The position numbers and the translations under genes were made by a program. A stretch of DNA of 5,336 nt. Source: Roseburia sp. (GTDB taxonomy: Bacteria; Bacillota; Clostridia; Lachnospirales; Lachnospiraceae). Where the stretch lies: contig JAGAIK010000650.1 of assembly GCA_017626625.1 (NCBI GenBank), forward strand, positions 1 through 5,336. Direction: 5' to 3'. Under the pieces are notes generated by a model. The model searched no databases and was not told the origin of the DNA. It was given only the letters and a program-made list of their open reading frames with translations. Below are positions 1,334 to 3,253 of the stretch, one piece after another. Positions within the stretch are counted from its first letter, which is position 1. Each line of letters begins with the position of its first letter.

Positions 1334-2626
1334 TTATTTCTCCAATTCCCAAATATGTTTATCATGCCGGAAATACAGACACACCGCAATTCCTGCAAAA
1401 GCAATCACGAAAAACAAAAACGCTGCTCCCGAGCCTTTTCCCTGCCCGAATAACCGAATCAGAATACTGTCACTGCCACAGGCTGCCATCAGTGGTTCAA
1501 ACACTTTATCCACCAGCAGTCCCCCTAAGAAATATCCCAGCGGAATCGTGAAAAACTGGAAAGAATTTCGCACGGAATACACTCTTCCCTGCATTTCCTC
1601 CGGCACCCTGAGACGCATAATGGCATCCAGATTCGTATTCATCAGCGGTATCGCAATCCAGCCGAGGAAACCACCGATACACCATACGAGCGGAGTCCGC
1701 CCCAACGCCAGCATGAAGTTCTCAAAACTCATGGAGAACAGCAGGCAGTTGCAGATGACCCGCACCCGGCTTTTCGGTGTTTTCATAAGGGAGGCAAGAA
1801 TGCTTCCCGCCAACGTCGATATTCCAATGACCGCATTGACCAGTCCAAGAACTTTCTCGCTTCCGCCCTCTCTCGACAAAAGCATTGCCGGAAACGCTGC
1901 GTCATAGACAGATGCCACCAGATTAATAGCTGCCAGAAAGAAAATTAAATCCAGAATGCCCCGTTCCTTTTTCAGGTAAACGATTCCCTGCCTTGCGGAG
2001 GTTATGAGGCTTTCCTGTTCCTGTACTTCCTGTCCGCCTTTCGGTATCCGTATTGCAAAGGCAAGTACAAGGAATGCCACCGTAAAGGTAAACAAATCGA
2101 AAGCAAAAACAACATTCATGCCTGCAAGCCCTAAAACAGCCGTTGCAATAATCGGCGTCAGAATAGAATTTAATGCGTTGGAAAAATAGCGCAATCCGCC
2201 CACTTTCTGGTAGTACTTCTCAGGAAGCACCCTTGTCACCGCCACCTCCGACGCAGGCTGCTGCACCGTATTCATCAGCCCGATGACTACATTTAAAAGG
2301 TACAGATGCCAGATTTGAAGTTGCCCCTTTTGCAGTAAAATTAAGGTAACAACCGTAGTTGCCGCTGCAATGGTATCACAAACCAGCATGGTTTTCTTTT
2401 TGTCCCACCGGTCACTCAGCGCCCCTGCAAATATGGAGAATATCACATAGGGTGCATAAGAACAAACCATCAAAAGCGCTGTCTTAAGCGCCGAGCCCTC
2501 CTGGGTGTAAGACCAGACCACCAGGGCATAACTTGTCATACTGCTTCCCAAGCCGGAAAATGACTGGGTAATCCAAAGCAACAAAAATGTCCGCATTTCC
2601 AATAATGTATTTTTATAATTTTTCAT
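1334..2626 (-). CDS. MFS drug efflux transporter, Mef-like (MFS_3 type)
   Basis: A 430-residue inner-membrane proton-driven exporter of the major facilitator superfamily. The nearest familiar pattern is the macrolide exporter Mef(A) and EntS-type proteins, judged by eye. Hydrophobic helices fill the sequence except for a hydrophilic central loop at about 192-220. The loop between helices 2 and 3 carries motif A, GALSDRWDKKK (68-78). The second-half equivalent is EMQGRVYSVRN (344-354), very like the corresponding part of Mef(A). Length is normal to slightly long for the group (Mef(A) is about 405). ATG at 2626-2624 is preceded by AAGGAG (2642-2637), 10 bases away. That ribosome binding site touches the arm of a predicted sequestering hairpin. 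The gene has its own promoter and structured leader and is transcribed toward the shared terminator at 1290-1332. The regulation points to a ribosome-targeting antibiotic as inducer and perhaps substrate, but specificity cannot be read from sequence. Confidence 0.9.
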   Translation of the reverse strand: MKNYKNTLLEMRTFLLLWITQSFSGLGSSMTSYALVVWSYTQEGSALKTALLMVCSYAPYVIFSIFAGALSDRWDKKKTMLVCDTIAAATTVVTLILLQKGQLQIWHLYLLNVVIGLMNTVQQPASEVAVTRVLPEKYYQKVGGLRYFSNALNSILTPIIATAVLGLAGMNVVFAFDLFTFTVAFLVLAFAIRIPKGGQEVQEQESLITSARQGIVYLKKERGILDLIFFLAAINLVASVYDAAFPAMLLSREGGSEKVLGLVNAVIGISTLAGSILASLMKTPKSRVRVICNCLLFSMSFENFMLALGRTPLVWCIGGFLGWIAIPLMNTNLDAIMRLRVPEEMQGRVYSVRNSFQFFTIPLGYFLGGLLVDKVFEPLMAACGSDSILIRLFGQGKGSGAAFLFFVIAFAGIAVCLYFRHDKHIWELEK

Positions 2627-2629
2627 ATA

Positions 2630-2733
2630 GACTTTGCTCCTTAAGGTATTTGATATTTTCCCGTATTTCGCAAAGTCCCAGGATAGTTAGTCCTGCTCCA
2701 TGCCGCCCTATCCTAAAAGACTCTGCATGGAGC
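2630..2733 (-). promoter_or_regulatory. Translational attenuator with two exclusive RNA folds, upstream of MFS gene
   Basis: Read on the minus strand. The predicted OFF fold pairs GCTCCATGC (2733-2725) with GCATGGAGC (2703-2695), 9 perfect bp, and GACTTTGC (2677-2670) with GCAAAGTC (2637-2630), 8 perfect bp, next to the exporter's ribosome binding site. The predicted ON fold pairs GCAGAGTCTT (2726-2717) with GGGACTTTGC (2679-2670), 10 bp including three G-U pairs. It continues after a 2-base bulge with AGGATAG (2714-2708) pairing CTATCCT (2686-2680), 7 perfect bp. The two folds share segment 2677-2670 and bases 2726-2725, so they cannot coexist, and the ON fold leaves the ribosome binding site free. 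The 5' segments lie inside the 13-codon leader ORF, as expected for control by a stalled ribosome. No U-run follows any hairpin, so translational rather than transcriptional attenuation is inferred. Energies were not computed. Confidence 0.72.
2637..2642 (-). promoter_or_regulatory. Ribosome binding site of MFS gene, sequestered by leader hairpin
   Basis: On the minus strand AAGGAG lies 10 bases before ATG 2626-2624. Its last G is the first base of GCAAAGTC (2637-2630), which is perfectly complementary to GACTTTGC (2677-2670). Closing that hairpin would put the ribosome binding site at the stem mouth and leave only 3 bases between the stem and the start codon, blocking initiation. Confidence 0.7.
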
Positions 2734-2754
2734 TCCTGCAATACATAATAACAT
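2713..2754 (-). CDS. 13-codon leader peptide of MFS exporter (MLLCIAGAPCRVF)
   Basis: A short ORF, ATG 2754-2752 to TAG 2715-2713, encoding MLLCIAGAPCRVF. The Shine-Dalgarno-like AAGGGGG (2769-2763) lies 8 bases upstream. A second purine tract, AGGAG, is at 2775-2771. The transcript is predicted to begin near 2778, so this is the first ORF on the mRNA. Codons 8-10 (Ala-Pro-Cys) are precisely the 5' arm of the 9-bp leader stem, and codons 10-12 make up the arm that frees the exporter's ribosome binding site. A ribosome stalled over roughly codons 3-6 would mask the first arm and leave the second free. A ribosome reaching the stop codon would cover the second. This geometry is that of erm, cat and related inducible resistance leaders. 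The peptide itself matches no stalling motif I know. Confidence 0.68.
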   Translation of the reverse strand: MLLCIAGAPCRVF

Positions 2755-2777
2755 TTGTACTTCCCCCTTTCTCCTAA

Positions 2778-2795
2778 TGTGTTTATTGTAACACA
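2778..2795. promoter_or_regulatory. Candidate operator dyad over the -10 box of the MFS promoter
   Basis: TGTGTT (2778-2783) and AACACA (2790-2795) form a perfect 6-bp inverted repeat around the 6-base centre TATTGT. The dyad covers the whole -10 hexamer (2790-2785) and reaches the predicted start site. A bound protein would therefore block initiation. Most of one arm lies upstream of the transcript start, so it cannot act as an RNA hairpin. Which regulator would bind is unknown. Confidence 0.4.
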
Positions 2796-2813
2796 GGGGG
2801 TGGAATTGGTAAA
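2785..2813 (-). promoter_or_regulatory. Sigma-A-type promoter of leader peptide and MFS gene
   Basis: On the minus strand, -35 TTTACC (2813-2808) and -10 TACAAT (2790-2785) are separated by 17 bases. The -10 has 5 of 6 and the -35 has 4 of 6 consensus bases. Transcription should start near 2778, giving a leader of about 150 bases. The promoter begins only about 20 bases after the stop codon of the upstream small gene, so some read-through from that gene is also possible. Confidence 0.65.
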
Positions 2814-2833
2814 TATTGTTGCTGCAAAATTCC

Positions 2834-3253
2834 TTATTTTCCGCTGATTACCGTCCGGGTCACCGTTTCCACGCCACCCGAAGTTGTGGTAGTTTCCAAA
2901 TAGGTAACTCCGTTGATGGTGACAACCTTTGTGCTGGTTTCCTCTTCGCTGTCAGAATCTCCGCCGCCTCCGCCGGAAGCTCCCGCACTGCTTACCGCTT
3001 CTCCGGTTTCACCGGAAGCTTCTGAGGAAGTGGAGGTTCCGGAGGACTCTGCTTTTGCACTCTGCATTACCTTTAAAATATCATTGTAATTTTCACTGGG
3101 TAATGCCGCAGAGGAATCCACCCCGGAGGCTATGTAGCTGTCGGTGTCACTCTCTTCTGCCAAAGCGCTGCCCGAACTGACGCTCTGTCTGTCCTGCATT
3201 ACTGTTTGAAGTGCATTGATTGAACTTAAATACTCGTCGATTGATAAAGACAT
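2834..3253 (-). CDS. Small acidic Ser/Gly/Thr-rich protein of unknown function
   Basis: I do not recognise this 139-residue protein. ATG 3253-3251 is chosen because AGGTGG (3266-3261) precedes it by 7 bases. The frame stays open to a GTG at 3337, but that has no ribosome binding site and would add 28 very basic residues unlike the rest. The N-terminus (SLSIDEYLSSINALQTVMQDRQ) looks helical. A disordered Ser/Glu/Gly-rich middle follows (about 24-108, with five Gly at 94-98). The C-terminus (VVTINGVTYLETTTTSGGVETVT, about 110-132, broken here only for description) looks beta-strand forming. There is no Cys or Trp, no signal peptide and no membrane segment. A weak internal repeat is visible: LQTVMQDRQSVSSG (15-28) against LKVMQSAKAESSG (60-72). 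It lies alone between the ABC operon and the MFS promoter, and no terminator was seen on either side. A link to either transporter is not shown. Confidence 0.72.
   Translation of the reverse strand: MSLSIDEYLSSINALQTVMQDRQSVSSGSALAEESDTDSYIASGVDSSAALPSENYNDILKVMQSAKAESSGTSTSSEASGETGEAVSSAGASGGGGGDSDSEEETSTKVVTINGVTYLETTTTSGGVETVTRTVISGK

Follow-up and report, generated by a model that had tools for sequence, protein, structure and literature searches.

Inducible resistance escapes both surveys that look at genes only and tests carried out free of inducer. A leader ORF lies ahead of the resistance gene tet(M) of Tn916. In the ermC-type attenuators, a drug-stalled ribosome acts on a short ORF with alternative stems, through which the initiation region of the resistance gene is sequestered or freed (PMC5418344). 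Translational attenuators of this general kind have also been described before cat genes or chloramphenicol exporters, with cat, cmlA and fexA as examples (PMC5418344). A leader peptide likewise precedes the Mef-type exporter of the mef(A/E)-msr(D) system, where the ribosome is stalled by macrolides; the mef and msr(D) attenuators, whose leader peptides are MTASMRLR and MYLIFM, are described as acting on transcription by means of an intrinsic terminator (PMC4335068, PMC10314930).

The window analyzed here is a stretch of 5,336 nucleotides from Roseburia sp., which encodes on its minus strand a Mef-like MFS exporter of 430 aa (1334..2626; Pfam MFS_1, 7e-36). This protein also matches TIGR00900 (2e-49) and Mef(A) (5.6e-31), both under the curated cut-offs, and by the NCBIfam exceptions cut-off it does not score as a Mef macrolide exporter (108 bits for Mef(A) vs 675); among solved structures, no match was found at an E-value of 0.001. 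Many of its named relatives are from Lachnospiraceae. Further upstream on the same strand lies a 139-aa ORF (2834-3253) rich in Ser, Gly, and Glu, with no NCBIfam or Pfam match at an E-value of 0.001.

The leader of the exporter gene quite probably controls translation as an attenuator: the exporter start site would be freed by a ribosome that has stalled near codon 5 of a short ORF, the likely cause of the stall being a ribosome-targeting antibiotic. That the signal is an antibiotic is indicated only indirectly, by the downstream genes (the Mef-like exporter and CatA-like enzymes) and by the likeness to known systems. Should the leader respond to drugs, the exporter behind it would be a widespread inducible one, and the leader would offer a ready-made reporter for finding the inducer. 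In its working the element looks like the ermC, cat, and fexA attenuators, and elements of the window type likewise precede CatA-like genes; compared with the mef/msr(D) attenuators, the window is without a terminator-like site between leader ORF and gene. Comparisons with Rfam and with R2, a covariance model built from 46 diverse elements, suggest a separate family. No family of Rfam 15 matches the leader (two unrelated sub-threshold matches lie elsewhere in the window), and for 10 element-bearing loci, of 11 searched, the sole result from Rfam was one sub-threshold rox2 match over an element (33 bits vs a gathering threshold of 55). R2 itself has no match, up to an E-value of 1, in three plasmid catA loci (types A-7, A-8, and A-9; L197-L199). 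The original prediction had also suggested a likeness of the loop to Tn916-type tet leaders, which was not borne out by blastn against 72,556 plasmid records (no match at an E-value of 1e-5) or by Rfam. Among the titles and abstract openings listed by full-text literature searches, mainly of papers outside subscription journals, none describes the leader.

Arrangement and conservation of the leader

Read directly from the minus strand (2754-2630), the leader comprises a 13-codon ORF, MLLCIAGAPCRVF, and a group of mutually exclusive stems. The ORF (2713..2754, predicted translation, closed by TAG) is preceded by the Shine-Dalgarno (SD)-like words AGGAG and GGGGG (2763..2775), and SD-like words of similar type lie upstream of homologous leaders too. 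A consensus scan predicts a sigma-70 promoter, TTTACC-17-TACAAT with TG ahead of the -10 (2785..2813, minus strand, nine of 12 matches), from which the transcript would start near 2778; the evidence for this promoter is weak, because shuffles of the region give a mean of 0.9 promoter-like sites.

Two of the arms lie within the ORF. Arm a (GCTCCATGC, 2725..2733) corresponds exactly to codons 8-10 and arm b (GCAGAGTC, 2719..2726) to codons 10-12, the two sharing two bases, and arm c (TTAGGATAG, 2708..2716) overlaps and follows the leader stop. They are followed, in the direction of transcription, by a' (GCATGGAGC, 2695..2703), the partner of a, by c' (CTATCCTGG, 2678..2686), the partner of c, and by the switching arm b' (GACTTTGC, 2670..2677), which can pair either with b or with b'' (GCAAAGTC, 2630..2637). 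The last of these consists of the final base of the exporter SD (AAGGAG, 2637..2642) and the spacer between SD and AUG. In the OFF set, a pairs with a' over 9 bp and b' with b'' over 8 bp; in the ON set, the 8 bp of b:b' are extended by the pairing of TTAGGATAG with CTATCCTGG (c:c', 9 bp including a G-U) into an interrupted hairpin of 17 bp. Sequence and covariation together establish these two exclusive pair sets among the arms a, a', b, b', b'', c, and c'. Each element given in the original prediction is present in the sequence at its coordinates, namely the 13-codon ORF with its SD-like sequence, the 9-bp stem built from codons 8-10, the alternative pairing of segment 2677-2670 with 2637-2630 (OFF) or 2726-2719 (ON), and the competing 17-bp interrupted hairpin.

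Homologous leaders were collected by scanning genome contigs with the exporter as query, which gave 108 stretches encoding a relative, and the best 80 of these 108 (50-97% identity in the best segment) were kept. The window and 55 of the best 80, picked by length and a recognizable b'', make up an alignment of 56 leaders. Across the best 80 of 108, the element is present at 75 homologous MFS loci, comprising the 55 used for model building and 20 of the 25 others, one of which (L026) is cut at its 5' end. The five loci without a model match are L029, L050, L066, L069, and L077, and L050 starts just 7 bases ahead of its gene.

The OFF pairs are formed in 97.3% of cells of the alignment, compared with at most 42.3% when slid. 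Changes on both sides of a pair occur at nine of the 17 OFF pairs and in 37 cells, against a shuffle mean of 6.8, with 0 of 500 shuffles as high. For b':b'' taken separately, 98.4% of cells are paired and three of eight pairs have changed on both sides. The ON pairing b:b' is formed in 96.9% of cells (56 sequences), but its covariation alone is modest: the score was reached by 0 of 500 shuffles, and two further measures fall within the shuffles (290 of 500 for pairs changed on both sides and 48 of 500 for further types), which may reflect the need of b' to suit two partners. The three arms b, b', and b'' vary jointly, as in GCAAAGTC/GACTTTGC/GCAAAGTC and GCAGGGTT/TGCCTTGC/GTAAGGTA, and in the six leaders whose b'' reads GTAAGGT(A/T), b' has GCCTTGC and the b arms match. 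The c and c' arms covary strongly: they differ in sequence between leaders but remain complementary, with a mean helix score of 18.2, whereas 500 swaps among sequences averaged 12.6 and went no higher than 13.8.

Folding, ribosome position and proposed mechanism

The minimum-energy fold of the window leader is the OFF set, at -42.2 kcal/mol, and none of 200 shuffles folded as well (z -3.04); forcing the ON helix in the same RNA costs 8 kcal/mol. In constrained folding, a ribosome footprint of -14 to +15 was masked round each P-site codon. Under this mask the window RNA turned ON only with codon 5 in the P site (0.94, as against 0.11 at codon 4 and 0.00 at codon 6), and it stayed OFF with the masked ribosome beyond codon 5; when the 3' edge of the mask was moved from 12 to 18 nt, the codon at which the RNA switched went from 6 to 4. 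In free RNA, OFF (b':b'' >0.5) is dominant in 37 of the 56 leaders and b:b' in 17. Masking codons 1-4 left between 12 and 24 leaders ON (b:b' >0.5), close to free RNA, and masking codon 5 brought 43 of 56 above 0.5 for ON, with 12 OFF. With the mask at codon 6, 52 of 56 were OFF, as were all 56 at codons 7-12 and 54 at codon 13. By these models, the switch is sharp in the window and not in every homologue. In 52 of the 56 leaders, the start region was predicted to be more accessible upon a codon-5 stall. Taken together, the folds imply that ribosomes running on would keep the gene shut and that one parked early would open it.

What the OFF state covers is narrower than had been supposed. The 8-bp stem had been said to hide the exporter's ribosome binding site, which holds for the initiation region but not for the whole SD: in the window, the OFF stem reaches a single SD base, the last G of AAGGAG, and otherwise lies over the spacer between SD and AUG, and the six SD bases are still, on average, 76% unpaired in the OFF model. 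The broader claim, that of a ribosome-position-controlled switch before an MFS exporter, agrees with both folds and covariation, and neither of the two computational tests set in advance refuted it. Compensatory changes are present in homologous leaders (weaker for b:b' alone), and the folds contain both states, free RNA being OFF and the RNA with a masked codon-5 footprint forming the ON hairpin. The occurrence of the element at 75 of the best 80 of 108 loci and the compensatory changes show that these complementarities are not due to chance.

A second lock, by pairing of arm a with the exporter SD, is likely. The first five bases of arm a are complementary to the SD (GCUCC:GGAGC), and in 14 of the 17 leaders that prefer b:b' in free RNA, the partner of arm a is then the exporter SD; the 37 OFF leaders and these 14 therefore give 51 of 56 leaders that are locked one way or the other. 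The complementarity is found in 98.2% of cells, compared with 22.9-43.2% when slid. Covariation between a and SD was not found within the 56 leaders, where 119 of 500 shuffles reach the observed number of paired cells (435 of 2000 in a repeat), and covariation among the 56 was dropped as a proof of the lock for that reason. Upon addition of 17 further hand-read elements, the paired cells exceed the shuffles (1 of 2000), and the 17 alone give 36 of 2000.

In the mechanism proposed here, the leader would rest OFF, as predicted by folding, with a:a' formed and b' paired to b'' within the SD-AUG spacer. Ribosomes that reach the leader stop would sit over b, so that b' would pair with b'' and the gene would stay OFF. 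A ribosome stalled with codon 4-6 in its P site would instead cover a and leave b free, upon which b:b' and c:c' could form and b'' would be released (ON). Where naked RNA folds into b:b', the a:SD lock would keep it shut, such that only a parked ribosome would open the gene. The nascent L-[C/M]-I-[A/V] at codons 3-6 may be what makes the stall drug-dependent, and the putative inducer would be a drug that binds the peptidyl transferase or the tunnel. Compared with the ermC stems, the leader differs in that the 5' arm to be covered by the stalled ribosome, arm a, has in a' a partner of its own, distinct from the switching arm. It differs further in the two-base overlap of a and b, in the c:c' extension past the leader stop, and in an arm a that matches the SD.

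Distribution and downstream genes

A covariance model built from the leader alignment, R1, had matches in 43 of 299 genomes sampled from the family to which the window belongs (45 places) and in 27 of 391 genomes of the same class (28 places), and R2 matched 10 of 398 genomes of the phylum (10 places); with six repeats removed, 77 distinct places remain. These counts describe spread and are no independent validation, because several of the places later went into R2 and some species behind R1 may recur among the genomes. Relatives of this MFS exporter lie downstream at 57 of the 77 places (broken or partial matches at L095, L106, and L111), CD3324-family genes at 12, CatA-like genes at three, and an alpha/beta hydrolase gene at one. 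Three more lie before gene remnants or no gene (L114, and L146 and L155 with only the C-terminal end of an exporter), and one is at a contig edge (L121). Element-bearing loci with broken exporter genes or remnants behind the leader are thus found at L095, L106, L114, L146, and L155. Two pattern scans of viral contigs yielded one locus each: at L192 the element precedes a copy of this MFS that is divided between two ORFs, and L193 looks like a lone palindrome.

The three CatA-like genes are preceded by the element with an A-P-C-type leader, and their products reach 210-214 bits, where the CatA cut-off is 270. At two of these loci, L144 and L145, the CatA-like gene is followed by a Vat-like acetyltransferase gene (245 and 242, respectively, vs the Vat cut-off of 300), which gives an apparent phenicol and streptogramin A pair; with scores under the cut-offs, the CatA-like and Vat-like proteins are to be regarded as relatives and not as certified members. 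The element is lacking at the CatA-like locus of Pusillibacter faecalis (L194), in which R2 has no match.

All 12 CD3324 genes behind the element score above their family cut-off. Before MFS, CatA-like, and hydrolase genes, arm a is mostly read as A-P-C, with some T-P-C, F-P-C, A-L-C, and A-P-R, whereas before CD3324-family genes the same arm bases fall into other frames, which mostly give L-H-A-K or L-H-A-E, and otherwise S-M-Q-S (L157), G-S-K-Q (L148), or G-S-E-Q (L161). All three frames are open in L160, and L158, L144, and L145 each have a second open frame under a loose start rule. Pairing of the arms with a', b', and the start region is kept through this re-framing (weaker, over 5 bp, for b' and the start region of L143), which suggests that the RNA is the inherited unit. 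Were it the RNA switch rather than the peptide that is inherited, sensors of different specificity could evolve by re-framing of the leader ORF. The wider proposal, that one RNA chassis with double-locked arms has been put to repeated use across Bacillota as a plug-in sensor of translation arrest, with its peptide swapped, in all three frames and before unrelated genes, is evenly balanced between holding and failing. In any case, the re-framed leaders amount to a natural experiment on which part of an attenuator is the switch and which the sensor.

CD3324-family genes scoring over the cut-off are present in 25 of 299 genomes, and R2 gave four matches at an E-value <1e-5 at these 25 loci (L164, L171, L173, and L180), three of which are places already in the phylum search. 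By eye, the 21 of 25 loci at which the start was found often have a leader ORF and competing arms of other sequence. Across the sampled phylum too, many CD3324-family genes (L162-L184) are preceded by a short leader ORF and, immediately upstream of the start codon, by complementary arms that recur, for example GCGTTGGCTC/GAGCCAACGC/ACGTTGG as read by eye, which looks like the same logic in unrelated sequence. The window's own genome has such a gene (L181, G000:C495:1349-1594), with a similar competing-arm layout upstream and arms that, by eye, differ in sequence (TTATAGCCAATGC vs GCACTGGCTATTG); R2 has no match in this upstream region. At L156, L159, L161, and L151, the CD3324-family gene with the element is followed by FusB/C-like, Vat-like, ABC-F-like, and SpoU-methyltransferase-like genes. 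CD3324-family operons were considered as general resistance operons, and this idea was rejected after inspection by eye of 23 loci, whose downstream genes are mixed and mostly not resistance-like; the Vat-like, FusB/C-like, ABC-F-like, and SpoU-like neighbors are therefore not used as proof.

Leader peptide and alternative explanations

The peptide was compared in 73 sequences, the window and 72 loci from the best 80 of 108; left out were L026, L029, L050, L066, and L069 (no pattern hit), and L051, L077, and L080 (no usable leader). Codon 3 encodes Leu in 68 of the 73, by means of all six Leu codons, and this retention through synonymous codons argues that the leader peptide is under selection. 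Codon 5 is Ile in 54 and codon 6 Ala in 45. Counted from where the A codon of A-P-C begins, the distance to the stop is 5 or 6 codons in 70 of 73 leaders, and the start codon, assigned under a simple SD rule, is found 4 to 17 codons upstream of A-P-C (7 in 44 of 73). The spacing of the L-C-I-A motif is accordingly fixed relative to the RNA arm and not to the N-terminus, a pattern that would be expected of a stall-site mark. The motif is not known to fit any arrest motif.

This conservation bears on a rather unlikely alternative, in which the leader would be a general sensor of translation stress that opens the gene upon any arrest or slowing, the peptide mattering little. Such a sensor would account for the unrelated leader peptides, in other frames, that are encoded over the same RNA arms before CD3324-family genes, the copies of the element in that family being without the MFS leader motif. 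The Leu at codon 3 of 68 of 73 MFS leaders, with its free synonymous change, points instead to a specific need for the nascent peptide.

Transcription attenuation is improbable. In this scheme, b:b' and c:c' followed by U would form an intrinsic terminator and the ribosome would decide on termination, much as such attenuation is used by the mef and msrD operons (PMC4335068, PMC10314930). A T run of at least four within 9 nt 3' of b' is seen in 13 of 56 leaders, but the other 43 are without a T run of four and no terminator-like site was found in window 2590-2870. The logic would moreover be reversed, the terminator hairpin forming upon ribosome stalling, and b'' covers the exporter start region and covaries with b'.

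An attenuator responding to amino-acid or tRNA starvation, in which slow decoding of, e.g., Cys or Pro codons would flip the switch, has very little probability and was discarded on codon content and re-framing. The A-P-C codons are indeed conserved in the leader, but they are arm a itself, the same bases of which are read in other frames before CD3324 genes, and the leader is without a run of a single amino acid. The stall that flips the switch is at codons 4-6, upstream of A-P-C, and exporters and CatA-like enzymes are among the downstream genes. Chance complementarity in an ordinary 5' UTR, where short complementary words are common within 150 nt, is refuted by the alignments with their compensatory conservation, by a stability that 0 of 200 shuffles attain, and by matches in 43 of 299, 27 of 391, and 10 of 398 genomes.

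A further regularity of the leader ORF is seen at codons 5 and 6 (2742-2737 in the window), where codon 5 nearly always ends in T regardless of the residue (ATT, AGT, AAT, GTT) and codon 6 starts with G in 72 of 73 sequences, a nucleotide-level constraint that falls outside the stems.
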